The notes under the pieces were generated by a model. The model ran no database searches. It was given only the letters and a program-made list of their open reading frames with translations, and was not told the DNA's origin. This document shows positions 20,865 through 35,778 of a stretch of 64,000 bases of DNA, in pieces. Source of the stretch: Kutzneria viridogrisea (GTDB lineage: Bacteria; Actinomycetota; Actinomycetes; Mycobacteriales; Pseudonocardiaceae); assembly GCA_014138725.1 (NCBI GenBank), contig JACJID010000003.1, positions 558,001 through 622,000 of the forward strand. The letters are read 5' to 3'. A program made the position numbers and the translations under genes. The first letter of the stretch is position 1. Each line of letters starts with the position of its first letter.

Positions 20865-20867
20865 CCC

Positions 20868-21023
20868 GCGCGTGTCGGCGCTTCGCGTACCGCGTGTCGG
20901 CGCTGCGCGTGCGGTGTGTCCGCATTTGGCGGACGAGTTCCCAACAGGCGAGAACCCGTACAGGAAGCGCAAACACGCCGTACCGGAAACGCCGACACGC
21001 GGTGCCGGAAGCGCCGACACGCG
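20868..21023. repeat. 156-bp imperfect inverted-repeat element, copy 2
   Basis: The element starts 4 nt after the SARP stop, before the convergent FAD monooxygenase gene. The left arm (20868-20925) begins GCGCGTGTCGGCGCTTCGCG and the right arm (20966-21023) is its reverse complement with a few changes; the loop is ~40 nt. Length, arm sequence and setting are the same as in copy 1 (11660-11816), while the loop sequences differ. Compensated arm differences would suggest selection on the folded form. Confidence 0.85.
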
Positions 21024-21033
21024 CTGTCCCTGC

Positions 21034-22461
21034 TCAGGCGCCGACGGCCACCACGCCGCACCGAACCCGCGCGAGGTACTCCGCCACCTGGTTACCGGTG
21101 CTGGCGATCAGCCCGATGTAGCCGTCCGGGCGCACGACCACCAGCGCGTCCCCCGCGATGTCGTAGGCCGGGTTGCCGGTGACCGACGCGGCGCCCTCGT
21201 ACTGGGCGTCACCGAAGGCCAGCACCGTGAACTGCGGGCCGCGGAACAGGTCGAACAGCCGACCCTCGCCGTGCACCCCGTCGGGCGCCCGGTCACCCGC
21301 GCGCAGCGCACCGGGCCGCTCGCGCAGGTCGACCGACAGCGGGCTGTCCCGGTAGTGCAGGCCGAGTTGCTTGAGCACCGGGTCGTCGCGGCGCATCGCG
21401 TCCTCGTCCCCGCGCGCGGCCTTGTTCAGCAGTTCGGTGCTGATGCCCAGCACGGCGGCGGCCACCGGCAGGCGCTCGGCCTGGTAGGTGTCCAACAGGG
21501 ACTGATCGGCCCCGGCGAGCACGGCGCCCAGCTTCCAGCCCAGGTTGTGGGCATCCTGCACACCCGTGTTCAGGCCCTGGCCCCCGGTTGGCGAGTGCAC
21601 GTGCGCCGCGTCCCCGGCCAGGAAGACCCGGCCCACCCGGTACCGGTCCACCATGCGCACGTTGGCCCGCCACGAGCTGGACCAGCCCACCTCGCGCAGT
21701 GTCAGGTCGGTGCGGCCGCTGGCCCGCTCCAGCAACTCCTGGAGGTCACCCGGCCGGGTGTCCCCGGTTGTGGGCACGGTGAGCTGGAACGTGTCAGTGC
21801 CCGCCATCGGGCAGAGGGCAAGCAGCGGCAGGCGGCAGGTCTCGTCCAGCCACATGTGCCAGTGGTTACGGTCCAGCCCGTCCACCCGGACGTCGGCGAT
21901 GAACATCTGGTGCTGCTCCAGGGTCTGCCCGGCGAACTCCACCGGCAAGCCCTTGCGCACGCCGCTGCGGCCACCGTCGGCACCGACGAGGTAGTCGACA
22001 CGAACGTCCTCTGTGGATCCGTCACGACTCAGAATAACGGTTACCCCGTTGTCGTCCTGCGCAAACCTCGTGAGCTCGGTCCGGAATTCCACGTGACCGC
22101 CCAGCTCGGCGAGGCGCTCGCGCAGGATCTGCACGGTGCGCCACTGCGGGACCATCAGCGTGTTCGGGTAGGGCACGTCCTCGCGCGGGTCGAGCTCCGG
22201 CGCCATGGGCCGCTCCCACACGACCTGTTCGTGCCGGTAGCCGCGCACCGGCGGGTAGGGACCGCCCACAGCCAGTGTCCGCTCGATCACGCCGAGGTCA
22301 TCGAGGACCTCCTGGGTCCTTGGCTGCAAACCTTTGCCACGTGAGCCCGCGAAAGCCTCGTCGCGGTCCACCACGCGGACCGCGACCCCGCGCCGGGCCA
22401 GGTCGACGGCCAGTGTCAGACCGGTGGGCCCGGCCCCTGCGATGAGTACCTGAGTGGTCAT
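21034..22461 (-). CDS. FAD-dependent aromatic monooxygenase (PheA/TfdB/rifampicin monooxygenase-like)
   Basis: A 475-residue class A flavoprotein monooxygenase. It has the N-terminal FAD motif LIAGAGPTGLTLA (GxGxxG at 8-13), the DG motif YLVGADGGRSGVRK and the second FAD motif GRVFLAGDAAHVHSPTGGQGLN, all in place. A C-terminal thioredoxin-like segment follows. The family hydroxylates phenols, polyketides or rifamycins using NAD(P)H and O2. It is a single gene that converges on the SARP gene. The short leader contains inverted GCTGTC/GACAGC words at about 22481-22511 that could bind a regulator. Role: tailoring, catabolism or antibiotic inactivation, not resolvable here. Confidence 0.87.
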   Translation of the reverse strand: MTTQVLIAGAGPTGLTLAVDLARRGVAVRVVDRDEAFAGSRGKGLQPRTQEVLDDLGVIERTLAVGGPYPPVRGYRHEQVVWERPMAPELDPREDVPYPNTLMVPQWRTVQILRERLAELGGHVEFRTELTRFAQDDNGVTVILSRDGSTEDVRVDYLVGADGGRSGVRKGLPVEFAGQTLEQHQMFIADVRVDGLDRNHWHMWLDETCRLPLLALCPMAGTDTFQLTVPTTGDTRPGDLQELLERASGRTDLTLREVGWSSSWRANVRMVDRYRVGRVFLAGDAAHVHSPTGGQGLNTGVQDAHNLGWKLGAVLAGADQSLLDTYQAERLPVAAAVLGISTELLNKAARGDEDAMRRDDPVLKQLGLHYRDSPLSVDLRERPGALRAGDRAPDGVHGEGRLFDLFRGPQFTVLAFGDAQYEGAASVTGNPAYDIAGDALVVVRPDGYIGLIASTGNQVAEYLARVRCGVVAVGA

Positions 22462-22559
22462 GGCGGCACTGTGGCCCCGTGCGCTGTCAGCTCACCGACA
22501 GCGCGCTGTCAGCGGGACTCGCGCGCCTCAGAGCGGGACTCGCGGGGTGGGGTGGGTGG

Positions 22560-23384
22560 TCAGTGGCCGGTGTCGCGCAGGAAGTCCTCGAACAGGGTGG
22601 GCAGGTAGGCCAGCAGCAGGTTCAGGGCGTCCAGGGCGCCGCCCACGGGATGCAGCTCGGCCAGGGACCAGGCCATCGCGGACCCGCGGTAGGCGGGCAC
22701 ATCGCTGCGCACGTCGGTGAACCAGGTGAGGAAGGGCACGCGCAGCTCGCGCACCCGGGGACTGACCAGCGGGCCGCCCAGCGCGAGCAGGGCGGTGGGC
22801 TCATTGCGCAGCAGCCAGCGGTAGACCTGGGAGAACTGGAAGAACCGCCACTCGGGGCCGGTCGGGCGCACCCCGCGCGACTTGGCCAGGGCCACCCCGT
22901 ACTCGGTGGCGGTCTGCTCGGCACGGCTCCAGGCGGCGTCGTGCACGCTGCGCTTGGTCAACCGCCCCGCCTGCAATCGCAGCAGGTAGTTAGCCCATTC
23001 AGTCGATCCGGGGTTTCCGAACGTGTCCTGACCCACTCCCAGTGCGATTGCTGTCCCCCGTTCGATGCCCTCCAAGATCGCGGCATCCACAATGGACGCC
23101 CAACTGCCTGACTCGCCGACCCCGCGGTCGCGGAAGAACTCGAGAACACCCTCGATGTTGCGCCACCGGTCCCAGACAGTGACCAAACGGGACACCTGGT
23201 GTGACTCCACGTGACGCAGCCAGGTACGTCTGTCGTGCATGGACAGTGCGTCCAGCTCGTCCAGGCCGAGGTCAAGGCCGTGCTCGCAGCACTGTCCAGC
23301 GCGCGGCAGCGGCACGTGCGGCGGTGTGGCCACCTCGGAGGTGGCCGGCGCCGTGGCTGCGCCGAGCGCACTTCGTACCAACAC
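22560..23384 (-). CDS. Protein of unknown function
   Basis: A roughly 274-residue soluble protein that I do not recognise. It is rich in Trp and Arg (WLRHVESHQVSRLVTVWDRW; WANYLLRLQAGRLTKR; WRFFQFSQVYRWLL) and mostly helical in appearance; no signal peptide is evident beyond a mildly hydrophobic start. I chose the GTG at 23384 because GGGGA lies six bases upstream; a GTG at 23390 is also possible. It lies 118 bp downstream of the GH114 lipoprotein gene on the same strand, with an AT-richer gap that could hold its own promoter. Codon use is normal for the window, so the frame is credible. Confidence 0.6.
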   Translation of the reverse strand: MLVRSALGAATAPATSEVATPPHVPLPRAGQCCEHGLDLGLDELDALSMHDRRTWLRHVESHQVSRLVTVWDRWRNIEGVLEFFRDRGVGESGSWASIVDAAILEGIERGTAIALGVGQDTFGNPGSTEWANYLLRLQAGRLTKRSVHDAAWSRAEQTATEYGVALAKSRGVRPTGPEWRFFQFSQVYRWLLRNEPTALLALGGPLVSPRVRELRVPFLTWFTDVRSDVPAYRGSAMAWSLAELHPVGGALDALNLLLAYLPTLFEDFLRDTGH

Positions 23385-23502
23385 CAACACTCCCCAGCCC
23401 GCACCCAGTCGACAACGCCAGAAAATGGTAACCGTGCGACAAGGAATGACCTTACGCCAAATCGGGCGAACCGGTGCGGCCGAGTAGAGGATCTTGAATG
23501 GC

Positions 23503-24438
23503 TCAGCAGGGCCAGCGCGCTGCGTCCAACGACTTGTTCTTCCGCATCGAGCTGAACCGGAGCCGACTCGTGGTGCCGCAGAACTCCTTGTTGTCGAGTT
23601 CGTACTCGACTTGGAACACGGCCTTGCCAGCGGCGATGAACGGGCTGAGCTTCGGGCACTCGTTGTACTGCGCACACTGCTCGTTGACTGAGAAGTCGAA
23701 CTCGCCAACCAGTTGGGTGACCTGGTCCAAATCATTCTTGAGCCCGATCGACAACCCCCGGTCGTGTGCCAGCCGGGCCAGCATCCGGTTGTAGGCGAGT
23801 TGATCAGCGGCGCTCAACGGGAATCCGGTGTCGCTGGCGTAGCCGTCGACGAGATCGGCCTCGATGCCGTCGAACCCCTTGTCCCGACAGGTGTCGAAGC
23901 GCTTGGCCATCAGCGGCTGCAGCACGGAGAGCTGGCGGATGTCCAGCCACTTCTCCCCGGGCCAGTTGTTCGAGCGGCCCTGCAACGAACTCGGGAACGC
24001 CTTGGCGTCGGGCCGGAAGTCCTCGTTGGCGCCCGCGTTGACGTAACAGATCACCTTGCGGCCCTTGGCGTGCAGGGTCCGGATGACATCAGCGGTCGCC
24101 TCGACCCCGTCGATGTCGTACACCGGCACGTCCACGCTGGTGTCCACCGGGGTGGTCAACTGCCACTGCCACGCGGTGCCCGGGGCCGGTACCCAGCGGG
24201 CGGACGTGCCGCCCCCGGTGCTGGGCTTGGTCGGCGGCGCCGCGGTGGGCGGCTTGGTCGCGCTGGGATCGGTGCTCGTCGGCGGCGCCGGGGTGGCGGT
24301 CGTGCTGGAGCTCTCCTCGGTCGTGCCGCTGCCAGTGGTGGTCGTGCTGGTGGGCGCGGGCGGCTCGCCGCCGGACCCGCTGCACCCAGCAGCCAGCACG
24401 ACCAGGGGTAACAGCACGCACAGAGCGCGGGCTCTCAT
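23503..24438 (-). CDS. GH114 (endo-alpha-1,4-polygalactosaminidase-like) lipoprotein
   Basis: A 311-residue secreted lipoprotein. A signal peptide ends in the lipobox LAAGC, followed by a ~60-residue Ser/Thr/Pro-rich spacer. The catalytic TIM-barrel domain starts near WQWQLTTPVDTSVDVPVYDIDG and includes VICYVNAGANEDFRPD, WLDIRQ, and the acidic motif GFDGIEADLVDGY. GH114 enzymes cut alpha-1,4-linked galactosamine polymers, and the hydrolase domain of PelA is of this type. The ATG overlaps the preceding stop (ATGA). As the last gene of the polysaccharide operon it may trim or release the polymer at the cell surface. Confidence 0.85.
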   Translation of the reverse strand: MRARALCVLLPLVVLAAGCSGSGGEPPAPTSTTTTGSGTTEESSSTTATPAPPTSTDPSATKPPTAAPPTKPSTGGGTSARWVPAPGTAWQWQLTTPVDTSVDVPVYDIDGVEATADVIRTLHAKGRKVICYVNAGANEDFRPDAKAFPSSLQGRSNNWPGEKWLDIRQLSVLQPLMAKRFDTCRDKGFDGIEADLVDGYASDTGFPLSAADQLAYNRMLARLAHDRGLSIGLKNDLDQVTQLVGEFDFSVNEQCAQYNECPKLSPFIAAGKAVFQVEYELDNKEFCGTTSRLRFSSMRKNKSLDAARWPC

Positions 24439-25121
24439 GCGATCAGGGTTCCTTTTCCGTTGGCGGGGAGGGGAAACCAGGACGGGAGCCGACCCCAGGG
24501 GTTGGCCCCGCTGTGGTCGCTGACCAGTGAGGTGCCCGCGTTGCGCCGGGCGATCAGGTCCAGCGCCTCCTCGGTCTGCGCGTCGGGCACGTCGTAGACC
24601 AGGTGCAGGAAGCGCTCCGCGGGCAGGGCGCGCGGCCAGCGCGGGGTGCTCAGCTCCACGTAGGTCGACCACGGGCCCTCGAAGGTGCCGAGCAGCTCCG
24701 CGTGGTCGGCGTAGGGCTTGATCGGGTGGGCGCCGTGGTTGAACACCACCTCACCCGCGCCGAGCAGGCGGGCCGCCTCGGCCAGTTCGGCGTAGTGGCC
24801 CACCTGGTCGGCGCCGGTGCTGACCCGGTCGAAGAACACCGCGTCCACCGAGAACCAGTCCCGGTGACGGGAGAAGTCCACCAGCGCGTCGGCCACCGGG
24901 CGGGTGCCGTAGGCGGAGTCCACGTACCCCGCCACCGGCACACCCGCGGCCCGCAGCCGGGCCACCACCGGGGCGAACGCGCTGTCGTACTGGGTGCCCG
25001 GCCCGCTGGCCACGTTCAGCACCACCAACCGGACTTGGTCGGCGGCCTCGGCCAGCGCGGTCCACCCGGCGGGGTCGACCGCCGGGTGGAAGTAGGCCGG
25101 GACCACGAGCTTGGGTGTCAC
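24435..25121 (-). CDS. Spherulation-specific family 4 (spherulin-4-like) protein
   Basis: A 228-residue protein of the spherulin-4 family: VVPAYFHPAVDPAGWTALAEAA at the N-terminus, then VLNVASGPGTQYDSAFAPVVARLRAAGVPVAGYVDSAYGTRP and FDRVSTGADQVGHYAEL. This TIM-barrel fold is related to GH114-type glycoside hydrolases. No signal peptide is seen. I prefer the GTG at 25121, which shares GTGA with the upstream stop; an upstream GTG at 25136 would overlap by 19 nt. It sits between an epimerase and the GH114 lipoprotein, all coupled, so it probably acts on the same galactosamine-type polymer or its precursors. Confidence 0.8.
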   Translation of the reverse strand: MTPKLVVPAYFHPAVDPAGWTALAEAADQVRLVVLNVASGPGTQYDSAFAPVVARLRAAGVPVAGYVDSAYGTRPVADALVDFSRHRDWFSVDAVFFDRVSTGADQVGHYAELAEAARLLGAGEVVFNHGAHPIKPYADHAELLGTFEGPWSTYVELSTPRWPRALPAERFLHLVYDVPDAQTEEALDLIARRNAGTSLVSDHSGANPWGRLPSWFPLPANGKGTLIA

Positions 25122-26014
25122 GTCGTTGCCTGCCACAGATCCGTCAACGAGGTCGTCAGGTCACGGCCGGGTTTCCAGCCGAGCAGTTCGCCGATCGTGC
25201 TGATGTCCGCCTGGTGCCAGGGGACTTCGGCGGACCGCGCAGACCCTACGCCCTGTTCGACGACCACACCAGTGAAGCCCGCGATGTCGGCCAAGGTCGT
25301 CACCAGTTGACGCACCGGTGTCGCACGGCCGCTCGCGACGTTGAGCACACCTGTGTCCACAGTGGACGCTTGGCAGACCGCGAGCACGGCTTCGGCCACG
25401 TCACGGGCGTCCACGAAGTCGCGCACGTCGTCGAGCGCACCCAGGTGCACGTCGGTGCCCTCGGCGATCGCCTGCCGCAACTGGGTGGCCAGCCTGCCCG
25501 GCAGGCTGCCCACCGGGGAACCTGGGCCGAACGGGTTGAACACCCGCAGCACCACCGCGTCCAGCCCAGCGGCCCTGCCCGCGGACACCACGGCGGTACC
25601 GGCCAGCTTGGTCACCCCGTAGACCCCCACGGGGCACGGCCTGGTCCGCTCGGTGATCGGCGTGCCCACCTCGACCCGGCCGTACTCGCCCGCCGATCCC
25701 AGGTGCACCAACCTGGTGGCGCACCCACGGGTGAGCAGCGCGCCGACCAGGTTGGCCGGGCCGGTGATGTTGCCCTCGGCGAGCACGTCGGGCGGGCCGG
25801 CCACCTTGCCCGCGCAGTTGACCACCACGTCCGGCTCGGCCTGCTCCAGCGCGGCCAGCACCCCGGCCACGCCACCGGTGACCAGGTCCAGCGCGAAGTC
25901 ACAGGAGGCCGACCGGCCGGCGGTGACCACGCTGGTCCCCGCCGCGCCGGTCAGCGCCCGCTTGACGTGGGCGCCCAGGAAGCCGTTGGCCCCGATGAGC
26001 AGAACGCGCGTCAC
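25118..26014 (-). CDS. NAD-dependent sugar epimerase/dehydratase (extended SDR)
   Basis: A 298-residue extended short-chain dehydrogenase. It has the Rossmann motif LLIGANGFLGAHV, the active-site tyrosine-lysine pair in VYGVTKLAG, and RVFNPFGPG in the substrate region. Members interconvert nucleotide sugars (C4 epimerases, 4,6-dehydratases, 4-reductases). The GTG start shares one base with the TAG of the nucleotidyltransferase gene. It is the second SDR of the operon; one of the two could convert UDP-GlcNAc to UDP-GalNAc, the Pel precursor, but specificity cannot be read. Confidence 0.83.
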   Translation of the reverse strand: MTRVLLIGANGFLGAHVKRALTGAAGTSVVTAGRSASCDFALDLVTGGVAGVLAALEQAEPDVVVNCAGKVAGPPDVLAEGNITGPANLVGALLTRGCATRLVHLGSAGEYGRVEVGTPITERTRPCPVGVYGVTKLAGTAVVSAGRAAGLDAVVLRVFNPFGPGSPVGSLPGRLATQLRQAIAEGTDVHLGALDDVRDFVDARDVAEAVLAVCQASTVDTGVLNVASGRATPVRQLVTTLADIAGFTGVVVEQGVGSARSAEVPWHQADISTIGELLGWKPGRDLTTSLTDLWQATT

Positions 26015-26727
26015 TACGCCCCCTTCAGCAGGGTGCCCCTGATGTCGTCGAACTCGGCGTTGGCCCGGTCGTAGTCGTCGGGTCGTCCGATGTCCAGCCA
26101 GTAGCCGCCGAAGTCGAACTCGGCGGGCGGGTTGCCGCTGGCGAGCAGGTCCAGCACCAGCTCGTCGAAGCCCAGCGGGGTGCCCGGCTGGTACTCGCGC
26201 AGGGTGGCCTTGCTCAGCCCGTACACGCCCATGGACACCCGGTAGTTCAGCGTGGGCTTCTCGGTGAACTCCACCACGCGGCCGTTCTGCGTGGTCAGCA
26301 CACCGAAGTCGATCTTCACCTGGCGCTGATAGGTGGCCACGGTCAGCGGGGCGTTGCCGCCAACGTGCTGCTTGAGCATGGACGAGTAGTCCAGGTCCGT
26401 CAGCACGTCCCCGTTCATGACCAGGAAGTTGTCCGGCAGGGTGTCCAGGATCTGCAGCACCGGGCCGATCGTGCCCAGTGGGGAGTCCTCGGTGGCGTAG
26501 TCGATGGACATGCCCCAGCGACTGCCGTCCCCCACGTAGGAGCGGATCAGGTCGCCGAGGTAGCCGATGGCCAGCGTGGCCCGCTCGAAGCCGTGCTGGG
26601 AAAGCTGGGCGAGCACGATGTCCAGGATGGAGAACTCGTCGCCGATGGGCACCAGCGGCTTGGGCAGCCGGGTGGTGTAGGGACGCAGGCGAACTCCCTT
26701 GCCCCCGGCCAGGATGACGGCGTGCAT
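26014..26727 (-). CDS. Sugar-phosphate nucleotidyltransferase
   Basis: A 237-residue GT-A-fold nucleotidyltransferase. The signature HAVILAGGKGVRLRPYTTRLPKPLVPIGD covers the nucleotide-binding loop, with NFLVMNGDVLTDLDY as the metal-binding region and FGGYWLDIGRPDDYDRA near the C-terminus, as in GDP-mannose or dNDP-glucose pyrophosphorylases. It makes an NDP-sugar from a sugar 1-phosphate. The ATG has GAGGGAG upstream. It lies 14 nt after the dehydratase gene and 1 nt into the next, so it supplies the same sugar-nucleotide pathway. Confidence 0.88.
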   Translation of the reverse strand: MHAVILAGGKGVRLRPYTTRLPKPLVPIGDEFSILDIVLAQLSQHGFERATLAIGYLGDLIRSYVGDGSRWGMSIDYATEDSPLGTIGPVLQILDTLPDNFLVMNGDVLTDLDYSSMLKQHVGGNAPLTVATYQRQVKIDFGVLTTQNGRVVEFTEKPTLNYRVSMGVYGLSKATLREYQPGTPLGFDELVLDLLASGNPPAEFDFGGYWLDIGRPDDYDRANAEFDDIRGTLLKGA

Positions 26728-26741
26728 GGTCGACTCCCTCG

Positions 26742-27737
26742 TCACTGGTTGTACTGCTCGGGCTTGTAGTGCGCCAGGTTGGCCGGGTCGCAGAACCACT
26801 CGATGGTCTCGGCGAGGCCCTGGTCCCTGGTGTACTGCGGCTTCCAGCCCGTGGCCTGGTGCAGCTTGTTCGCGTCGGCGATCAGCCGCATGACCTCCGA
26901 GTTCTTGGGCCGGATGCGCTGGCTGTCCTCGGTGATCTCCACGTCCACGCCCATCACGCGGGCGATGTCGTGCGCGAGCTGGCCGATGGAGACCTCGACC
27001 CCGGTGCCCGCGTTGAACAGCTCGCCGACCACGGTCTCGGCCGGGGCGGTGCCCGCGGTGACGAACGCCTCCGCGGTGTCCTTGACGTACAGGAAGTCCC
27101 GCGTCGGGTCCAGCGCGCCGAGCTTGATCGACTTGGCCCCCGCGGCCAGCTGGCTGATCACGGTGGGGATGACGGCGCGGGCGGACTGGCGCGGGCCGAA
27201 GGTGTTGAACGGCCGCAGGGTCACCGCGGGCACCTCGAAGCTGAGGTGGTAGGACTCGACCAGCTTGTCGGCCGAGAGCTTCGAGGCCGCGTAGGGCGAC
27301 TGGGCCTGCAACGGGTGGGTCTCGCTGATCGGCACGGTGCGCGCGGTGCCGTAGGTCTCGCTGGTGGAGGTGTGCACCAGGCGGCCGGTGCCGCAGGCGC
27401 GCACCGCCTCCAGGATGTTCAGCGTGCCGATCACGTTGGTGTCCACATAGGACCGGGGCGCCTTGTAGGAGTACGGGATCGCGATCAGCGCGGCCAGGTG
27501 GTAGACCACCTCGGCGCCCTCGACCAGCTCGCGGGCCGAGGCCCCGTCGCGCACGTCGCCCTGCACGACCTCCACGTTGTCCAGCACGTCCCGGCCCAGC
27601 GACTCCAGCCAGCCCCAGGAGCCGAAGGAGTTGTACAGCACCATCGCCTTGACCCGGTTGCCGCGACGTACCAGCGACTCCACCAGGTGTGATCCGATGA
27701 AGCCCTCGGCCCCGGTCACTGCCACGACGTTCGTCAT
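26742..27737 (-). CDS. NAD-dependent 4,6-dehydratase/epimerase (LegB-like extended SDR)
   Basis: A 331-residue extended SDR. It has AVTGAEGFIGSHLVESL, THR-containing HTSTSETYGTA, the YxxxK pair in SPYAASKLSADK, and RPFNTFGPRQSARAVIPTVISQL. This last string is typical of LegB-type and related hexosamine 4,6-dehydratases acting on NDP-GlcNAc. The ATG at 27737 has GAGAGG upstream. It follows the membrane protein gene by 18 nt and precedes the nucleotidyltransferase by 14. The enzyme likely makes an unusual amino-sugar nucleotide for the exported polymer. Confidence 0.85.
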   Translation of the reverse strand: MTNVVAVTGAEGFIGSHLVESLVRRGNRVKAMVLYNSFGSWGWLESLGRDVLDNVEVVQGDVRDGASARELVEGAEVVYHLAALIAIPYSYKAPRSYVDTNVIGTLNILEAVRACGTGRLVHTSTSETYGTARTVPISETHPLQAQSPYAASKLSADKLVESYHLSFEVPAVTLRPFNTFGPRQSARAVIPTVISQLAAGAKSIKLGALDPTRDFLYVKDTAEAFVTAGTAPAETVVGELFNAGTGVEVSIGQLAHDIARVMGVDVEITEDSQRIRPKNSEVMRLIADANKLHQATGWKPQYTRDQGLAETIEWFCDPANLAHYKPEQYNQ

Positions 27738-27755
27738 CTACTGCCTCTCTAGGTG

Positions 27756-29216
27756 TTACCTGTGTTTGGTTGCCTGACCCAGAGCCACCGAGGCGTGCAC
27801 GGCGAGTACCGCCAGCAGCCCGCAACAGGCCAGCAACTGAGCCGAGATCAGGTCGATCCGCCATCCGAACCAGATGGCTCCCACCGCGGCCGAGACCTCG
27901 GTGAGCAACGCCGCCGCACAGCCTGGCAGCACCGTCCAGGTGCTCCCGCAGGCCTGCAACAGCAACGCGATGAACAGCGCCGCGCCCAGCGCCAGGTACG
28001 CGGTGTAGGCCGGGACCTGCGTCCACTCCGGACGGCCCGCGCCGATCAGCGCGGCCGTGGTGATCACCGTGGCGAACAGCAGCACCGCGACCACCAGGTA
28101 GCGGACCACCGCGAGCCCCAGCACCAGCCGGGAGCGCGCGACGAACCGGGACACCCGCGTGGTGGCCTGCGACTCGCGGCGCATCCTGCTGCGGTACCAG
28201 TACAGGTTCCACTCCGCGGCCCCCATGCTCAGCGACAGCGGCAGGGCTGCCACCGGTGCCGCCTTGGTGCCCAGCGCCGGGATCGCGGTGGCGGCGACCA
28301 CCGGGAAGGCCAGCAGGCCCGCGGTGAGCACGCCGAACAACGCGTAGGGCAGTGCGCCGAACGAGGTCTGCCTGGTGACCAGGGGTCCGTTCGCGGGGGC
28401 GGGGTTCCAGGTCTGGTGCACGGCGAATCCTACCGACAGCAGCACGGAACCAGCCAGCACACACCACACCGGCAGGTTCAACCACTGCGGCTCACCGGCC
28501 ACCACATATCCCAGGCTGGCCAGCACGCCCGGCGCGAGCGCGATGAACAGCCACTTGTCGGCCTTGCGCACCAACAGGACCGTGGCGGCCATCAGGTAGA
28601 TACCCTGCCCCAGTGCGAAGAGCACCACCGGCAGCCCTGCGCCGGAGACCAGCAGCAGCACGCCGAGCACCAGGGCGAGCAGACCGACCGAGGCGGCCAT
28701 GCCCAGCCGGAGAACCCTTGCGGCGCCACCGTTGTCCAGTGCGCTCGTCCGAGAGTACCCGAGGTAGGCCACGGCCTGGCTGAGCGACCAGGAGATCAAC
28801 ATTGACACGACGAGCACGGTCAACGCCGGGCCGCCGCCCAGCAGCGGGGCCGCCGCCGGGTAGCACAGCGCGGGCAGGCCGAACAGCAGGCCGTGCACCA
28901 CGTGCGTGCTGCGCTTGGTGGTCCACGGGTCGGGCAGCGGCTCGGGCTCCTCGGGCTCGCGCGGCACCTGCCGGTAGAGCTCCTCGGCCAGGGTGAACAC
29001 GTCGGAGAAGCCGTACTTGCGCTGCACCGCCTGGTCGGACAGGCCGTCGGCCTCCAGCCCCGCGGCGATCTCGAACGGGTCCACCGCGGCCGCGCACAGC
29101 GAGGTCATGCGCTCGCGCAACTCGTCGAGCGGGGTACGCGGCTTGGTCTCGGGAATCGTTCCCTGCACGGAGAAGTACGCGGTCTTCTGTGCCTCGGGGG
29201 CGGTACCCGCGGTCAT
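27756..29216 (-). CDS. Polytopic membrane protein of the polysaccharide operon (PelG-like position)
   Basis: A 486-residue protein. The first ~100 residues are soluble, with a helical stretch ending QAVQRKYGFSDVFTLAEELYRQVP, then about 11-12 hydrophobic segments run to the C-terminus. The layout resembles oligosaccharide flippase-like exporters. The gene directly follows the PelF-type glycosyltransferase with an ATGA overlap, the same neighbourhood as pelF-pelG in known Pel operons. PelG is a 12-TM protein that partners PelF. I see no decisive sequence signature, so PelG equivalence is inferred from position, size and topology. Confidence 0.7.
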   Translation of the reverse strand: MTAGTAPEAQKTAYFSVQGTIPETKPRTPLDELRERMTSLCAAAVDPFEIAAGLEADGLSDQAVQRKYGFSDVFTLAEELYRQVPREPEEPEPLPDPWTTKRSTHVVHGLLFGLPALCYPAAAPLLGGGPALTVLVVSMLISWSLSQAVAYLGYSRTSALDNGGAARVLRLGMAASVGLLALVLGVLLLVSGAGLPVVLFALGQGIYLMAATVLLVRKADKWLFIALAPGVLASLGYVVAGEPQWLNLPVWCVLAGSVLLSVGFAVHQTWNPAPANGPLVTRQTSFGALPYALFGVLTAGLLAFPVVAATAIPALGTKAAPVAALPLSLSMGAAEWNLYWYRSRMRRESQATTRVSRFVARSRLVLGLAVVRYLVVAVLLFATVITTAALIGAGRPEWTQVPAYTAYLALGAALFIALLLQACGSTWTVLPGCAAALLTEVSAAVGAIWFGWRIDLISAQLLACCGLLAVLAVHASVALGQATKHR

Positions 29217-30661
29217 GCGCTCCTCACTTCCCGATCCTGGTTCAGCGGGTACTTGCGGGCCAGTGTGGCGTAGAGCTCGTCGAAGGTGCCGATGGCCTGG
29301 TCAACGGTGAAGTACTCCAGCGCCCTCGTACGGGCCGCCTGGCCCAGCCGGTGGCGCAAGTCGTTGTCGGTCAACAGGTCCAGGCACGCCTTGGCCATGG
29401 CCTCCGGGTCGCGGGGCGGCACGACCAGCCCCGTGTCACCCACCGCCTCGCACACCCCGCCGACGTCGGTCGCCACGCAGGCGCGCGCGCTGGTCATGGC
29501 CTCGATCACGGTGTACGGGAAGCCCTCGGAGATGCTGGACAGCACCACGACGTGCCCCGCCGCGTAGGCGTCCCTGATCTCCTCGACCCTGCCCTCGAAG
29601 GTGGCTACCTCGCCGATCCCCAGTTGTGCCGCCAAGTCCTTGCAGCGGTTGAGATACCCCTCGCCGCCCTTGGGTGTTCCGCCGAACAGCCGCAGCCGCG
29701 CCTCCGGTAATCGCTTGTGCACCAACGCGAAGGCCCGCAGCAGCGTCTCCAGGTCCTTGATCGGGTCGACCCGGCCCGCCCAGCTGACCGTGGGGACCTC
29801 CGGCTCGGAGTCCACGGCGGGGAAGTCGGCGGGGTCCACCCCGTTGTAGACGGTGCGGATCGCGGTGGGCTCGGCGCCCAGCCGCTCCTCCCACCGCTTG
29901 TTGTAGATGTTGCCGGGGGCGATCATCCCGGCCTCCAGGTAGGCCTGCGTGCACAGCTTGCGCAGGAAGGCCAGGTGCAGCGCCTTGACCGGCCAGCGGT
30001 ACGGGCCGCCGCGGTAGCCCAGGTAGCGCTCACGCAGGTAGATGCCGTGCTCGGTGAGCAGCAGCGGGGTGCCGTAGGTCCACTTGGCGGCCAACGCGGG
30101 CAGTGCCGCCAGGCCGTTGGCCACGCAGTGCGACACCTCCGCGCGCACCGGCGGGATCGCCAGCGGGCGCAGCGAGTGCTCCAGCAGTTCCACGGCGGTC
30201 AGCGCGTCGAACACGGTCGGCGCCGTGGCCTCCCCGTCCAGCCAGCCGTCCTGCCAGGCGTCGGACAGGGCCCGCACGGTGTGCTCACCGCGCAGCGCCG
30301 CGGTCAGGTCGTAGCGCTGCCCGTACTCGAACAACTCGCGCAGCACCAGGCCGAACCACTGCTGGCCCGCGTCGGTGGGGTCCAGCAGCGTGTCGAAGAA
30401 GTCCCTGATCAGAGGCCGGAAGGCCCGGCGGGCCTGCCGGCCGGGTGTGCGCCCGGCCGGCACGGCCCCCCACAGCGGAACGGGCGTCACCGAGGCGACA
30501 TTGCGGGGCAGCTCCCAGGCTGGCTGGTTCACCGTGCCGCCGACCAGCGCGACCACGTGGAAGTCGTAGTCCGGCATACCGCGCACCAACTGGTCACACC
30601 ACACGCTCACACCACCGAAGCTGTGCGGGTAGGTGCCCTCTGTCATCAAGGCGACGTCCAT
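29213..30661 (-). CDS. pelF: GT4 glycosyltransferase of the PelF type
   Basis: A 482-residue GT-B glycosyltransferase. The N-terminus VALMTEGTYPHSFGGVSVWCDQLVRGMP matches the distinctive PelF opening. The donor half has VSWAGRVDPIKDLETLLRAF, the nucleotide-sugar site and the E-x7-E motif in SEGFPYTVIEAM. PelF polymerises GalNAc/GlcNAc from UDP-sugars in the cytoplasm for export through PelG. Length is close to the ~507 residues of Pseudomonas PelF. It starts 6 nt after the deacetylase stop and overlaps the membrane gene by 4 nt. A stand-alone surface-glycan GT4 is the alternative, but the whole operon supports a Pel-like role. Confidence 0.85.
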   Translation of the reverse strand: MDVALMTEGTYPHSFGGVSVWCDQLVRGMPDYDFHVVALVGGTVNQPAWELPRNVASVTPVPLWGAVPAGRTPGRQARRAFRPLIRDFFDTLLDPTDAGQQWFGLVLRELFEYGQRYDLTAALRGEHTVRALSDAWQDGWLDGEATAPTVFDALTAVELLEHSLRPLAIPPVRAEVSHCVANGLAALPALAAKWTYGTPLLLTEHGIYLRERYLGYRGGPYRWPVKALHLAFLRKLCTQAYLEAGMIAPGNIYNKRWEERLGAEPTAIRTVYNGVDPADFPAVDSEPEVPTVSWAGRVDPIKDLETLLRAFALVHKRLPEARLRLFGGTPKGGEGYLNRCKDLAAQLGIGEVATFEGRVEEIRDAYAAGHVVVLSSISEGFPYTVIEAMTSARACVATDVGGVCEAVGDTGLVVPPRDPEAMAKACLDLLTDNDLRHRLGQAARTRALEYFTVDQAIGTFDELYATLARKYPLNQDREVRSA

Positions 30662-30667
30662 TGTGGG

Positions 30668-32830
30668 TTAGCGCCCCTGACCTCTCTGGGCCGCGGCCGA
30701 GGTCAGCACCGCGTCGGAGGCGGTGTTGAGCTTCGGCGTCGACAGGGTGACCGGGATCGCCGGGCGCACCGGCTGGTCCAGCACGACCGGCAGCAGCGCC
30801 CTCGGTGCCAGCGGCAGGGTGCCCGCGGGCAGGGTGAGCGTGGCCCTGGCGGAGCTCAGGTAGGCCGAACGCTGACCGGCGTAGGACTCACCGAACGCGG
30901 CCCCGTTCACCGTGGTGCCCTCCGGCACGGTGACCGGGATCTCCACTCCGTCAGAGCCCTGCACGGTGACGGTGCCGCCCTGGCTGTACGCGGTCACCCC
31001 GCCCGCTGCCAGCGCCTTGGTCCACGCGGCCTGCCGCTGGAGCGTCTGCCCCGCGGCCGACAGCCTCGGGTTGACGATCGGCGTGTTCGCCGCGAACTGC
31101 GCGCGGTAGGTGGCCAGCACGCCCTCCACCACCGGGTACAGGAGCCTGCCCTCGGCGAGGTTGGACTGGTGCACGTAGTGCGGCTGCGGGTCGTTGCTCG
31201 TCACGTGCCGCATCGCGATCTTGACCTCGAGCGGCACGATGTAGTTCGCGTAGCCGGTGTTCGGGTCCAGCGGGGTGATGCAGGTGGTGGTGGCGGGGTT
31301 GTCCTCGCACACCCCGCTGCCGCCGTTGGCCCTGGAGGTGTAGATCCAGTTGTACTCGGAGACCTCCTCGGAGGGGTTGGCCACGTTGTAGAACACGTTC
31401 ATCGGGTGCCGGGGCACGCCCAGCGCCGAGGCCACCTGCCGCTGGCCGGTCTCCCGCGAGGCGTCCAGGCCGACCCACGCGATGTCGTTGGCGCTGAGCG
31501 CGGCCAGGAAGTTCGGGTTGTCCTGGGGCTGCTGGGGCAGGATGAAGGTGCCCGAGTGCTCACCGGAGAGCAGTTCGTCGGCCTGGATGGGCAGGCCGTG
31601 CTTCTGCGCGAACTCCAGGTTCTTGGTGATCTCGATGTTGATGTCGGCCTGGCTGACGTACTGGACCTGGCCCGCCGCGTTGGTCACGCAGCGCCACGGG
31701 ATCACCGTGAAGTCCTGCTGGCAGCCCAGGAAGCCGTGCGAGTAGGTGTGGTTCACCCAGCGGAACTGGCTCTTCTGCGCGTCCAGCGAGGTGGTCAGCG
31801 GATCACTGCCGTGGTCGGCGATGACCTCGTCGCTGCCGACCCCGTTGTACATGAAGTCGAACTGGAAGTTGTGCTGCTGCTGCCAGGCGACGGCGTGGTC
31901 CACGTCCTGCGGGGTGATCCGCACCGGCACGGTGTCCGGGGTGCCCGGCGGGCAGTCGTTGTTGCCGGGGGTGCAGTGCGCCGTGGAGTTCCACCGGTCG
32001 TCGGCGGCGTAGATGTCGTCGACGTTGACCGTGAAGTAGTTGCGGTAGTACCCCAGGTGCACGCCCCGCGTCGCCCAGTCGATGATGCCGTGCGCCAGCA
32101 GGCGGAACTGCTGCTGGTACCCGTTGTAGGCGAAGGTCGTGACCAGCTGCTCACGGCCGCCCTTGCGGTAGACGCCCATCAGCGTGCCCTGGGCGGTGCC
32201 GCCCGGCACGGTGGCCGTCAGCAGCGGCTCGAAGTGCGCGCCGGTCGTGGTGTTGTCCGGCTGCGGCGTCGCCAGGTAGCCGTACGCCTCGGTGACGGCC
32301 GGGTCGTTGTCCTCCAGCGGGACCGGGCCGGCCAGGTAACGGAAGGCGTCACCGGTGGCCGCCGCGGTCAGGTGTGCGGTGGTGCCGTCCAGCTTGCCCG
32401 AGTAGATCGGGCTGTTCAGGCCCACGTTGGCGCTCGGGTAGGAGAACCCGTTCACCTGGCGGATGCCGTACTGCTGCTCGTAGGCGGTCAGGGCGGTGAG
32501 CTCGGCGGAGCTCAGGCCACCCGGGTTCTCGTTGGCGAGCACCACGGCCTGGAACTTGGCCCTGGGTGCCCCGCCGACCTGGTCGGCCAGGTAGGTGTCG
32601 GTGATCTGGGGACGGTGCGCGTCACTGGTGGACAGCACGGTCGCGGCCAGGCCCTCGGAGGCCAGCTGGGACCGGATGCCCTCCACCCACGCCGAGCCGT
32701 CCGTGACGACCAGCACGTTGAGGTCCACGCGTGTCGACGCCGCCGCAGCGGCCACCCCAGGCACACCCACGAGACCGGCTACGCACGCAACTACCAGAAG
32801 CGCAGCCCTCGCTTGTGCGATCGATCGCAA
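30668..32830 (-). CDS. Secreted polysaccharide deacetylase-like protein (PelA deacetylase-domain-like)
   Basis: A 720-residue exported protein. The signal peptide (about 1-30, ALLVVACVAGLVGVPGVAAAA) precedes a Rossmann-like region (LNVLVVTDGSAW, to ~250). A carbohydrate-esterase-4-like barrel follows, with the Asp pair NVDDIYA and the metal motif HTYSH, then EHSGTF. A C-terminal beta-rich domain ends the protein. Asp plus His-x3-His is the zinc and base set of polysaccharide deacetylases, and PelA deacetylates the Pel polymer outside the cytoplasm. The TTG start has GGGG eight bases upstream and no better codon is near. It heads the operon. The order differs from proteobacterial pelA, which fuses hydrolase and deacetylase. 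Confidence 0.8.
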   Translation of the reverse strand: MRSIAQARAALLVVACVAGLVGVPGVAAAAASTRVDLNVLVVTDGSAWVEGIRSQLASEGLAATVLSTSDAHRPQITDTYLADQVGGAPRAKFQAVVLANENPGGLSSAELTALTAYEQQYGIRQVNGFSYPSANVGLNSPIYSGKLDGTTAHLTAAATGDAFRYLAGPVPLEDNDPAVTEAYGYLATPQPDNTTTGAHFEPLLTATVPGGTAQGTLMGVYRKGGREQLVTTFAYNGYQQQFRLLAHGIIDWATRGVHLGYYRNYFTVNVDDIYAADDRWNSTAHCTPGNNDCPPGTPDTVPVRITPQDVDHAVAWQQQHNFQFDFMYNGVGSDEVIADHGSDPLTTSLDAQKSQFRWVNHTYSHGFLGCQQDFTVIPWRCVTNAAGQVQYVSQADINIEITKNLEFAQKHGLPIQADELLSGEHSGTFILPQQPQDNPNFLAALSANDIAWVGLDASRETGQRQVASALGVPRHPMNVFYNVANPSEEVSEYNWIYTSRANGGSGVCEDNPATTTCITPLDPNTGYANYIVPLEVKIAMRHVTSNDPQPHYVHQSNLAEGRLLYPVVEGVLATYRAQFAANTPIVNPRLSAAGQTLQRQAAWTKALAAGGVTAYSQGGTVTVQGSDGVEIPVTVPEGTTVNGAAFGESYAGQRSAYLSSARATLTLPAGTLPLAPRALLPVVLDQPVRPAIPVTLSTPKLNTASDAVLTSAAAQRGQGR

Positions 32831-33288
32831 TGTTTACCCCGTTCACGCGCGTGCGACCACCAGGTGGCACGCGGTTTGTGAAGGAAATGGACGCGGGTGC
32901 GTCCGCCCCAACCACATCGCTGACGGCACTCCGTTGTTACCGGCGAATGGCATTCTTCAGCTAAACGCACGCTAATCGGCTGAAGGAGGTATCTACGCTG
33001 GGCCGAACGGCTCAGCGGGTAAGACTGAACGCATCATTCACATGCCCAAGTGGGTTAACTCCGGTTCATTCAGAACGACAAGTTTCCTGGACGTACCAGA
33101 CAGGCAGTGACGAACCGGACACATGATGAACCAGCAGTTGAATACGCACACCCAGCATCTTCACAGCCAACCGTTACCTGAGTCACCCATCCGTGGGTGA
33201 CGATGGCCACGATGTGGTCAGGTGCACGTTAGCCCTCGACATGACGAACGCGCGGGCAATTACCTGTGAACGGCGCAAGCATCCGGAC
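32831..33288. promoter_or_regulatory. 458-bp leader/intergenic region upstream of the polysaccharide operon
   Basis: No credible gene is seen here, and the GC content drops well below that of the flanks. The region holds several hairpins: TTCAGC/GCTGAA (about 32955-32984), CGCTGGGCC/GGCTCAGCG (32996-33017) and a perfect GTCACCCA-TCCG-TGGGTGAC (33182-33201). It must contain the promoter of the minus-strand operon. The size and structure leave room for a long 5' untranslated region. I see no match to a riboswitch class I know. Confidence 0.5.
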
Positions 33289-33669
33289 CTATATTCGGTA
33301 AATGGGCGTAGCGGGCGCCTGGGCGGCGGTCCTTGCCATGGCCCGGTCGCGCGCGTAACGGCCAAGGAACGCGTCGATGGCCGCCCTGGTGGCGCGCAGG
33401 CCCTCCGCGCAGTCGGCGAGCACCGACTCGCCCAGTGCGGTCAGCTCGTAGCAGCGCCTGGCAGGCCCCGGGGTCGCGGTGCGCCAGGCCGAGCAGACCA
33501 GGCCGTCCCGTTCCAGGTTGCGCAGCGCCCGGTAGATCCCGCTGGCGTCGTTGTCCGCCCCGCACAGCTCGCGCAGCCGCTCGATCAGGCCGTAGCCGTG
33601 GTCGGGGCGCTCGCCGAGCAGGAGCAGCAGGCAAGGGCGCACGAAGTTGCGCGGTTCACAGTCTCGCAT
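33289..33669 (-). CDS. PadR-family transcriptional regulator
   Basis: A 126-residue regulator with the PadR winged helix: CLLLLLGERPDHGYGLIERLRELCG, then ASGIYRALRNLERDGLVCSAWRTATPGPARRCYELTALGESVL. A short C-terminal helix follows. PadR proteins repress genes in response to small phenolic or hydrophobic ligands, or act constitutively. The ATG at 33669 has a GGGACGGG stretch upstream; longer versions of the frame look unlike protein. It is transcribed towards the polysaccharide operon leader and away from the GAF-ANTAR gene, so either could be its target. Confidence 0.83.
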   Translation of the reverse strand: MRDCEPRNFVRPCLLLLLGERPDHGYGLIERLRELCGADNDASGIYRALRNLERDGLVCSAWRTATPGPARRCYELTALGESVLADCAEGLRATRAAIDAFLGRYARDRAMARTAAQAPATPIYRI

Positions 33670-33968
33670 GAGTGGCACCCGTCCCGTCCAATTAGCACAC
33701 CCCAGGGCAGGGAGAGGGGCGCGAGTTCGCGTTTCGCAAGTTGAATCATGCACATGCAAGCGTACTCCCGGTACAGGATAAACCGAATGCACACGCAAGG
33801 ACCGGGCTCTCGACGCGTCCAATCGGGTAACGCTCCACGCGAACCGCGTGGCAATTCCACTGCGGCAGCCGCCGAACAGTAGAGCGGGCTGTGGTCCGAC
33901 CGGAACAACCGTGCTCCATTCCGGTCGTTTGTCGCCGACAGGGCTTCCCCAGCCCGTACCGTTCAATC
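33670..33968. promoter_or_regulatory. Divergent promoter region with direct repeat ATGCACAYGCAAG
   Basis: The 299-bp gap between the PadR and GAF-ANTAR genes carries ATGCACATGCAAG at 33748-33760 and ATGCACACGCAAG at 33787-33799, 12 of 13 bases identical and 39 bp apart. ATGCACATGCA contains the ATG/CAT symmetry often seen in PadR operators. The region is relatively AT-rich. No gene is apparent. Confidence 0.45.
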
Positions 33969-34688
33969 ATGACGTCGATGCCGGCAGCAAGACTGGCTGA
34001 AACCTTCGTCAAGCTCGCCGATACCCTGGTCGGTGACTTCGACGTCGACGAGTTCCTGCGTTTTCTCGCGAGCAGAGCGAGGGAAACACTGTCCGCGGAC
34101 GCGTCCGGTGTTGTGCTGGCCGACCTGTCCGGGCACCTGCGCACCGTGGCCGACTGCGTGGGGAAGACCAGCTCAGCGCCGCTGTGGGAGCTGCTGCGAG
34201 CGGACGGCCCCAGCATGGAGTGCTACCGCACCGGTACGCCCATCGCGGTACCCGACGTGGACCAGCACAACAACAGGTGGAACCGCTTCCTTCAGGAGGC
34301 GAGATCGGCCGGTTTCGCCGCACTGCACGCGGTGCCGTTGCGCCTGCGTGATACCACCATCGGCGCGCTCACCCTGTTCCACGCGCGCCGGGGAACACCG
34401 GACTCCGAGGACGCGCGAATCGCCGAGGCGATGGCCGAGGCCGCCGCGATCGCGTTGCTGCAGCAACGGGCAGTGCAGCGGGAGGAAACCCTTGCCAAGC
34501 AGCTCCAGGCGGCGTTCACCAGCCGCATTCTGATCGAGCAGGCCAAAGGTGTGCTCGCCGAGCGGCTGGGCACGACGGTGGATGCCGCTTTCACGGCACT
34601 GCGCGAACACGCCCGGCGAAGCAACCAGCGGTTGACCGAACTCGCCAACGCGGTGCTCTCGGGTTCGACGGACCTGCCGCGTGAGTGA
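33969..34688 (+). CDS. GAF-ANTAR sensor/antiterminator protein
   Basis: A 239-residue cytoplasmic protein. A GAF domain (about 20-165, with VGDFDVDEFLRFLASRARETLSADASGVVL and GFAALHAVPLRLRDTTIGALTLF) is followed by an ANTAR RNA-binding domain (about 180-235, RILIEQAKGVLAERLGTTVDAAFTALREHARRSNQRLTELA). ANTAR proteins bind paired hexaloop hairpins in mRNA and prevent termination; the GAF domain senses a ligand or redox state. The ATG at 33969 is the best N-terminus, though the ribosome site is weak. It is divergent from PadR. Its RNA target is not obvious in the window. Confidence 0.87.
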   Translation: MTSMPAARLAETFVKLADTLVGDFDVDEFLRFLASRARETLSADASGVVLADLSGHLRTVADCVGKTSSAPLWELLRADGPSMECYRTGTPIAVPDVDQHNNRWNRFLQEARSAGFAALHAVPLRLRDTTIGALTLFHARRGTPDSEDARIAEAMAEAAAIALLQQRAVQREETLAKQLQAAFTSRILIEQAKGVLAERLGTTVDAAFTALREHARRSNQRLTELANAVLSGSTDLPRE

Positions 34689-34822
34689 TCTTCGCCCGCT
34701 CGGGCTTGCCAGTGGTGATAACGCGGGTGCACTGTGTGACCGGGGCGAAATCACATTGCGCCCACTCACCGCTCCGGACCCCGGCGGGCCCACGCGTCCA
34801 CACCTCGACCAGGGAGGTTGCC

Positions 34823-35656
34823 GTGTCCGGCACGGCCTTGACCGCGGCACGCCGGTCCGCCTACACGGGCGAGCCCGCCGCACGTGCGGGCTCCGCGATG
34901 GGCGCCGGGGACTCGCACGGCCTGGACACCTGCTCCTCGGGGCAGCGCAGGCTGCGCGCGCTGTTCGCGCTGCTGCTGTGCAACCAGGGCGCGGGCCAGG
35001 ACCACCCGCTGGATGGGTGGGAGCTGGACTTCTCCGTGGTCGACTTCGTGACCTACTCCCCCGAACCGCACGGCCTGGTGGTGCTGACCTCGGCCCCGCA
35101 CGTGCTGGCCGAGACGTGCCTGGTGCAGACCGAGCAGCCGCGCCGCAGCGGTCTGCCCGGGCTGCGCCCGCTCAACGCCGACCAGCACGGCAGGTGGTTC
35201 CGGTTCCGGCACGTGCCGACCCGCACCCTGCTGCGCATCGCCTCCGCGGAGGGCGCCGGGGCGACCCGCCCGCAGGTGCCGATCGCCTGGGAGATCGCCT
35301 CCCGCGCCTGGGACCTGCACCCCGCGGAGCAGCACATGCTGGACGTGGTGCCCCCGGTGCACCGCGACGCCGAGGAACTGCTCGCCGGGTTGCTGGTGCG
35401 GTTGGGCACCAACGATCCGGACGGCCGCTGGCGGGTCGGCGGGGTCGCCGGGTCCGGGCACTGGACCTCACTGTGGGGTCGCGGCAGGCATTGGACGCTG
35501 ACCTGTCGTGAGGCGGAACTGGTCGCCGGTCTGACCGCTGCCCTGTGCGGGCCCGAGATCGGCATGGCGGGCACCGTCGTGCTGGAGTCCGACGCGACGT
35601 CCACGCTGGTGGGCCACCGGGAGGCGACCCTGCGGCTGATCGGACCGACCGGGTAG
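34823..35656 (+). CDS. Hypothetical protein
   Basis: A 277-residue protein I do not recognise. After a short Ala/Gly-rich N-terminus it has a compact region (LRALFALLLCNQGAGQDHPLDGWELDFSVVDFVTYSPEPHGLVVLTS) and a C-terminal half with HWTSLWGRGRHWTLTCREAELVAGLTAALCGPEIGMAG. No signal peptide, membrane segment or catalytic motif is obvious. The GTG at 34823 follows a strong AGGGAGG; the longer frame from 34685 overlaps low-quality sequence. It lies 134 bp after the GAF-ANTAR gene on the same strand. Confidence 0.6.
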   Translation: MSGTALTAARRSAYTGEPAARAGSAMGAGDSHGLDTCSSGQRRLRALFALLLCNQGAGQDHPLDGWELDFSVVDFVTYSPEPHGLVVLTSAPHVLAETCLVQTEQPRRSGLPGLRPLNADQHGRWFRFRHVPTRTLLRIASAEGAGATRPQVPIAWEIASRAWDLHPAEQHMLDVVPPVHRDAEELLAGLLVRLGTNDPDGRWRVGGVAGSGHWTSLWGRGRHWTLTCREAELVAGLTAALCGPEIGMAGTVVLESDATSTLVGHREATLRLIGPTG

Positions 35657-35710
35657 GTCCGGGCGCACCCGGTCGAGGGAGATGCGGGCGGCACCGGCCC
35701 CTGTTCGGAT

Positions 35711-35724
35711 AAGGTCTAAACCAA
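35711..35724. promoter_or_regulatory. DasR-type dre site upstream of nagA
   Basis: AAGGTCTAAACCAA closely follows the dre consensus for the GntR regulator DasR (core TGGTCTAGACCA; 10 of 12 bases match). It lies 54 bp before the nagA start. DasR represses N-acetylglucosamine uptake and catabolic genes and is released by glucosamine-6-phosphate. A dre before nagA is expected from Streptomyces; binding here is inferred. Confidence 0.7.
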
Positions 35725-35778
35725 TATCGTCAACGATGCCGTCGCCGGGACCCATCTCAGCTGCCCCAGGAGGCACCC

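Follow-up and report, generated by a model that had tools for sequence, protein, structure and literature searches.

In a 64,000-nucleotide stretch of the Kutzneria viridogrisea genome (GenBank assembly GCA_014138725.1, contig JACJID010000003.1, positions 558,001 to 622,000; hereafter the window), eight tightly packed minus-strand genes spanning 23503-32830 appear to form an operon for a cationic exopolysaccharide that resembles fungal galactosaminogalactan (GAG), i.e., an amino-sugar polymer of the GAG/Pel type that would be partly de-N-acetylated. Based on sequence comparison, we give this reading a probability of roughly 0.7; the probabilities of the alternatives weighed below overlap with it and need not sum to one. 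The operon is better explained as a bacterial equivalent of the fungal GAG cluster than as the Pel operon with split PelA functions proposed in an earlier note on this DNA, since one product is homologous to the fungal deacetylase Agd3 over both its CBM87 and its CE domains (by profile) and two others are homologous to Ega3 and Sph3 and keep their catalytic Asp and Glu. The reading also draws on an eight-gene order that recurs across actinomycetes, on operon GH114 proteins that are nearer to Ega3 than the other GH114s of the genome, on signal-like hydrophobic stretches in the deacetylases, and on a loose lipobox pattern in the GH114s. The published specificities of Agd3, Ega3, and Sph3 on GAG support it (PMC7229062, PMC12054363). 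Operons of this kind have been in print since 2020 (PMC7229062), and no fuller account of the type was found in the open-access literature. The eight genes, in order of transcription, are as follows.

30668-32830, minus strand: CE18-like deacetylase; TTG start, 6-nucleotide gap to the GT4 gene
29213-30661, minus strand: GT4 glycosyltransferase (DUF3492 and GT1 domains, PelF-like); 4-nucleotide ATGA overlap with the membrane protein gene
27756-29216, minus strand: membrane protein; 18-nucleotide gap to the LegB-like SDR gene
26742-27737, minus strand: LegB-like extended SDR; 14-nucleotide gap to the nucleotidyltransferase gene
26014-26727, minus strand: sugar-1-phosphate nucleotidyltransferase (NTP); 1-nucleotide overlap with the SDR2 gene
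25118-26014, minus strand: second SDR (SDR2); 4-nucleotide GTGA overlap with the Spherulin4 gene
24435-25121, minus strand: Spherulin4 (GH135-like); 4-nucleotide ATGA overlap with the GH114 gene
23503-24438, minus strand: GH114 lipoprotein; last gene of the operon

The secreted deacetylase and hydrolase

The first product looks secreted and carries an N-terminal CBM87-like domain. The earlier note had called it a CE4-like deacetylase and one half of a divided PelA, and neither description held: its nearest homologue, by profile, is Agd3 (CE18 plus CBM87), so that it groups with the fungal enzyme rather than with PelA or CE4. A profile of ten CE18 relatives, three of them from variant clusters (profile A1), matched the Agd3 structure 6nwz with an E value of 1.2e-27, and a profile restricted to seven operon-type proteins (A3) did so at 4e-11. 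Agd3_CE and CBM87 matches at E values up to 1 occurred in nine and eight of the ten aligned members, respectively, and a CE4 match in one (E = 0.018). The DD, HxxxH, and H motifs (D271/D272, H361/H365, and H554) are invariant across A1 and correspond to the metal-binding or catalytic residues given for Agd3 (PMC7229062). By a hydropathy measure, 81 of 82 CE18 proteins have a signal-like hydrophobic stretch. In Pseudonocardiaceae bacterium YIM PH 21723, three tandem CE18 genes precede the operon (L015:1300-8410, the same locus as L064).

At the other end of the operon, the GH114 lipoprotein was correctly recognized in the earlier note: it scored 278.6 bits on PF03537 (cut-off, 27) and matched Ega3 (6oj1) with an E value of 2.2e-56. 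Residue mapping identified D195 and E253 as its catalytic pair (Ega3 numbers from PMC12054363). An LAAGC lipobox was read by eye, and a loose lipobox pattern was present in 54 of 59 GH114s. Operon GH114s are 38.8 to 45.5% identical to Ega3, compared with ~30% over 127 columns for the two further GH114 genes that lie outside the operon in the same genome (G000:C7:362060-362725 and G000:C1:770631-771236).

Spherulin4 without a signal peptide

The Spherulin4 product, previously described as spherulin-4-like, bears that name out with 93.3 bits on PF12138 (cut-off, 30.2). It matched Sph3 (5c5g) at an E value of 3e-6 as a single sequence and at ~4e-18 by profile. D103 and E153, numbered on the 233-residue reading from 25136, correspond to the Sph3 catalytic pair, and an Arg follows the Asp; the Sph3 Asp was mapped as that of the FFDE strand, for which PMC12054363 prints Asp196/Glu222, while the alignment spacing fits Asp166. 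Both catalytic residues are kept in all 66 operon orthologues, and the residue after the Asp is Arg in 37 and Gln in 29. The corresponding residue of Sph3 is Glu167. The idea that Arg or Gln at this position marks an inactive or cytosolic Spherulin4 was rejected, since the Spherulin4s of L019 and L123, which have signal-like N termini, also carry Gln or Gly there.

Start positions and hydropathy indicate that the operon Spherulin4 has neither a signal peptide nor a membrane anchor. The GTGA overlap with SDR2 places its start at 25121, and in all 63 proteins scored (3 of the 66 were set aside because their readings were over-long) only 1 to 18 residues separate the start from the first strand motif, with the proviso that the scored start was the start codon nearest that of the Kutzneria protein, which biases towards short N termini. 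The starts annotated by others on the Streptomyces californicus and Kocuria plasmids each overlap the preceding gene by 4 nucleotides. When the in-frame stretch of up to 60 residues upstream was scored, 6 of 58 reached a signal-like hydropathy value, which we take to reflect overlapping SDR2 coding sequence; the Actinomadura locus L082 is the least clear case.

Gene order and variant loci

A scan of named genomes yielded 420 stretches encoding a CE18 relative, of which the best 80 loci were kept; these are the closest loci and so do not represent CE18 loci in general. Fifteen end too soon, leaving 65 that could be assessed (L013 to L017 lie outside this set and are largely duplicates: L014 = L023, L015 = L064, L016 = L025, and L017 = L041). 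With a Spherulin4 model built from 62 trimmed proteins, the exact order CE18-GT4-membrane protein-LegB-NTP-SDR2-Spherulin4-GH114 was found in 54 of the 65, including loci from Streptomyces, Kitasatospora, Actinomadura (L082), Planosporangium, and several Pseudonocardiaceae. The order recurs far beyond chance; the earlier note had named a lack of conserved synteny as refuting its view, and synteny proved to be strong. Two more loci have it with additions (an extra GT4 in Amycolatopsis L031 and extra CE18s in L064), GH114 was undetected in four, and five differ otherwise: CE18 stands alone in L020, no Spherulin4 was found in L059, the detected order differs in L088 and L097, and L098 has no sugar cassette.

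The genes LegB, NTP, and SDR2 are all missing from Kocuria L195, Thermus L196, and Actinomadura L098, while L018 and L019 have NTP and SDR2 with only weak LegB-like SDRs in the neighborhood. The cassette is present in Deinococcus ficus, and Deinococcus grandis has LegB and NTP without an SDR2 match; no Spherulin4 was found in either. The cassette and Spherulin4 thus vary independently of a core of GT4, membrane protein, and CE18. The Kocuria rosea version is a compact CE18-GT4-membrane protein-Spherulin4-GH114 operon (L195:5514-14582) on a plasmid typed as mobilizable, flanked by two transposase genes that share one protein accession, and the system may be mobile there.

The coordinates and junctions in the window (four overlaps of 1 to 4 nucleotides, remaining gaps of at most 18) confirm the eight minus-strand genes described previously, with the operon ending at 23503 rather than at 22560. 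The open reading frame at 22560-23399 matched no Pfam or NCBIfam family, and the related loci scored with it showed nothing corresponding. A comparison of 20000-36000 with Rfam gave nothing above threshold, and no sigma-70-like promoter was found in 32700-34700. Among 61 long loci, 29 encode a conserved, secreted-looking protein of ~175 residues, without a Pfam family over cut-off, whose gene starts ~1.1 kb before CE18 (e.g., L193:5699-6226 and L029:7737-8393).

The GT4 protein and the Pel comparison

The GT4 protein matched PF11997 (177 bits) and passed the NCBI equivalog model for PelF, NF038011 (171.5 bits; cut-off, 100). This result favors the earlier view of a true monoderm Pel operon, in which a PelF would work with a diverged PelG and PelA would be split in two, as do the hydrolase and deacetylase common to both systems and the partner with ~12 hydrophobic segments, a count typical of MOP flippases. 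However, a tree of 33 GT4s separated the 25 that have this membrane partner from 8 PelG-partnered PelFs by a 100/100 branch. The split was unchanged when four long rows were omitted, and a smaller, 29-row tree agreed, although the program flagged that the two groups join through long branches, and the tree is read as unrooted. The eight PelFs come from plasmid records and represent about five lineages, with Bacillus PelF outside the tree. The membrane partner was recognized beside each of the 25 GT4s, weakly in Kocuria and Thermus and over its N-terminal part only for three rows from a Streptomyces paralogue locus (see below), and none of the neighbors of the eight PelFs matched the membrane-protein profile. 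The GT4 passes the family model for PelF and falls outside the clade of the eight PelG-partnered PelFs tested, the latter being one of the outcomes that the earlier note had named as refuting its view.

No PelB, PelC, PelD, PelE, or PelG model was among the Pfam and NCBIfam matches listed for the operon products (for three of the soluble proteins, the best 25 NCBIfam matches), as had been noted for PelB, PelC, and PelD; the search for PelD and PelE covered the operon products. PelG was not found in the genome, with only Thermotoga positive among 14 control genomes. Given that the GT4 tree, the PelG searches (Pfam, NCBIfam, and profile-profile), and the deacetylase profile are all contrary to it, the split Pel operon was demoted, and we regard it as improbable. 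The broader elements of the earlier proposal are supported: an exopolysaccharide operon in a monoderm, with a PelF-like GT4, a hydrolase and a deacetylase encoded separately, dedicated nucleotide-sugar genes, and no cyclic di-GMP receptor found. Relative to the Gram-positive pelDEA(DA)FG operon of Bacillus cereus (PMC7112168), the operon is similar in having a GT4 that passes the PelF model and separate hydrolase and deacetylase genes, but no PelD, PelE, or PelG was found here, the deacetylase is nearest to another family, and the GT4 lies apart from PelG-partnered PelFs (the Bacillus protein not being in the tree).

A presumed exporter of no known family

The membrane protein shows ten hydropathy regions, two of which are broad and were read as two segments each, giving ~12. 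This count agrees with the earlier 12-TM-like description. The proposed likeness to PelG was not supported at the level of sequence: comparison with a five-row PelG profile gave a probability of 0.04% (hhalign), and there was no match to PF16933 or to the NCBIfam PelG model. The earlier note had named the lack of a PelG/flippase fold as another refuting outcome, and these sequence comparisons bear it out in part. Among 36 family members, no Pfam family scored better than an E value of 0.15. We presume that this protein of no known family is the exporter and the partner of the synthase. A conserved N-terminal module of ~80 residues (window 28930-29120) could be a regulatory or GT4-docking domain; the same module is common to the membrane proteins of the Streptomyces paralogue loci, whose remaining sequence matches little.

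Distribution of the protein is patchy, as it was found in 8 of 60 genomes of the family sample (its own, six of the same family, and one of the same order) and in none of the six other genomes of the genus in that sample. At the level of the class, its profile found matches in 31 of the 296 genomes sampled, 17 over the membrane part and 14 over the ~80 N-terminal positions only.

The sugar cassette and the nature of the product

The LegB-like SDR, predicted to be a nucleoside diphosphate (NDP)-sugar 4,6-dehydratase, scored 458.9 bits on TIGR04180, slightly below the cut-off of 475, and in an alignment of 67 rows its TSTSETYG and YAASK motifs are conserved in at least 95%. Its closest solved relatives are a mixture of dehydratases and epimerases, and we take its TSE motif to be of the dehydratase type. 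The nucleotidyltransferase (PF00483, 139 bits; best PDB match, 7d72, E = 7.7e-28) is closest to mannose-1-phosphate guanylyltransferases, its best NCBIfam match among those listed being far below cut-off, and SDR2 is closest to GDP-6-deoxy-D-mannose 4-reductases (6x3b, E = 8e-23; 2pk3, E = 4e-20). Together, the three genes suggest a separable cassette that would provide a route to an NDP-6-deoxy-sugar.

These properties raise the alternative that the operon chiefly makes a polymer or glycoconjugate whose sugar is a 6-deoxy-amino sugar (N-acetylfucosamine- or N-acetylquinovosamine-like) and for which GAG-type tailoring enzymes were recruited. In its favor are the TSE motif, the GDP-forming and 4-keto-reducing relatives of NTP and SDR2, and the presence of the LegB-NTP-SDR2 order in 62 of 65 loci. 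It is countered by relatives that have GT4, membrane protein, and CE18 but lack the whole cassette (L195, L196, and L098) or part of it (L018, L019, and Deinococcus grandis L205), so that the cassette is apparently dispensable for the polymer core. We judge this alternative unlikely, albeit deserving of more weight than the Pel operon.

The cassette also belongs among several observations that weigh against a GAG-like product. Its genes point to a 6-deoxy-sugar, and to our knowledge neither GAG nor Pel contains one. No GalE/Uge3-type equivalog is encoded in the operon, whose SDRs scored 159 and 73 bits on the GalE model (cut-off, 262). As a single sequence, the CE18 protein missed Agd3 in a phmmer search of the PDB, and its Pfam matches to Agd3_CE (E = 0.007) and CBM87 (E = 0.03) were both below cut-off; the residue mapping covers the DD, HxxxH, and H motifs, with the third Agd3 motif (Arg) outside it. 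Finally, by the hydropathy measure used for the CE18s, only 36 of 61 GH114s have a signal-like stretch.

Proposed pathway and relation to the fungal cluster

For a GAG-like operon, we infer the following steps. The GT4 would polymerize an NDP-N-acetylhexosamine, probably N-acetylgalactosamine, with a 6-deoxy-sugar made by NTP, the LegB-like 4,6-dehydratase, and SDR2 as 4-keto-reductase possibly co-polymerized. The 12-segment protein, which occupies the place of PelG in Pel operons, would export the chain, while Spherulin4 would stay in the cytosol and cut polymer on the inner side of the synthase, preventing clogging. Outside the cell, CE18 would remove acetyl groups to yield a cationic, adhesive chain, and the GH114 lipoprotein would cut deacetylated stretches and so set chain length or release.

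The fungal cluster of Aspergillus fumigatus (uge3, sph3, gtb3, ega3, and agd3; PMC7229062, PMC4817252, PMC7329490, PMC12054363) shares with the operon the Agd3, Ega3, and Sph3 homologues, a glycosyltransferase, and nucleotide-sugar SDRs; the correspondence of the deacetylase and both hydrolase-like proteins to this cluster went unremarked in the earlier note. In contrast to that cluster, the glycosyltransferase and membrane protein are separate genes here (Gtb3, a transmembrane glycosyltransferase, was compared by description only), LegB, NTP, and a reductase take the place of a GalE-type epimerase, and Spherulin4 lacks a signal peptide or anchor, unlike Sph3, which is described as membrane bound and acting where the chain leaves Gtb3 (PMC12054363, PMC7329490). 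Derivation of the fungal cluster from this operon type as a unit was not supported, since CE18 needs a profile to find Agd3, the Spherulin4-Sph3 match is only 3e-6, and the GH114 tree leaves the fungal rows unresolved.

The bacterial agd3 operons described by Bamford et al. in 2020 (PMC7229062) likewise combine an agd3 homologue, a cytoplasmic glycosyltransferase, a multi-spanning membrane protein, and a GH114, with spherulin-4 in some Actinobacteria, as here. The text of section 13 of that paper mentions neither a fixed order of eight genes nor the sugar cassette, and it does not describe a Spherulin4 without signal peptide or the absence of PelG homology.

The presence of three GAG-active enzyme families together, in actinomycetes, which live with molds, would also suit a locus for scavenging or competition, whose products would break down fungal GAG and not build a polymer. 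Against this, the GT4, membrane protein, and nucleotide-sugar genes overlap or adjoin the others, none of the eight genes is for uptake or sugar catabolism, and Spherulin4 has no signal peptide, and we consider such a locus very improbable.

A Streptomyces paralogue and wider implications

In all four Streptomyces loci read (L159 to L162, e.g., L159:5907-11324), a GT4, a membrane protein that shares the N-terminal module, SDR2, and Spherulin4 lie beside a presumably MoeZ-like gene. One genome of this genus has the same match at the same place as the named S. pseudovenezuelae. The Spherulin4 query matched 78 of 81 Streptomyces genomes; in 76 the identity reached 60% or more, at least over part of the protein. 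Of eight named Streptomyces genomes, six have a ~70% paralogue, and S. harenosi and S. tateyamensis show the operon type only. None of the 30 loci read retains the catalytic Glu, which is replaced by Ser, Ala, Thr, Cys, or Gln; the Asp is kept in 28. A term search of the available text of a Streptomyces synteny paper (PMC13118837) returned nothing on the paralogue, and neither it, the separable cassette, nor the signal-less Spherulin4 was found in the open-access literature. These variant features and the widespread paralogue are the parts most worth pursuing.

We tentatively raise the possibility that the operon represents an additional class of synthase, dedicated to cationic amino-sugar polymers and comprising a PelF-like GT4, an unrecognized 12-segment exporter family distinct from PelG, a cytosolic GH135 that edits or unclogs the nascent chain, and an optional 6-deoxy-sugar cassette. 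If this is true, the Glu-less Streptomyces paralogue would show that Spherulin4 also acts as a non-hydrolytic, chain-binding subunit, and the dependence of fungal GAG synthesis on Sph3 may stem from an inherited role at the synthase. Deletion of sph3 abolishes GAG by a mechanism that is unclear (PMC7329490). The operon offers a version of the GAG pathway in bacteria that are open to genetic work, and it makes two questions testable: why synthesis requires the chain-cutting Sph3, and what carries the chain out where PelG is missing. Fixed in many Streptomyces and other actinomycetes, in which such polymers have been little studied, it probably makes a sticky cationic coat.

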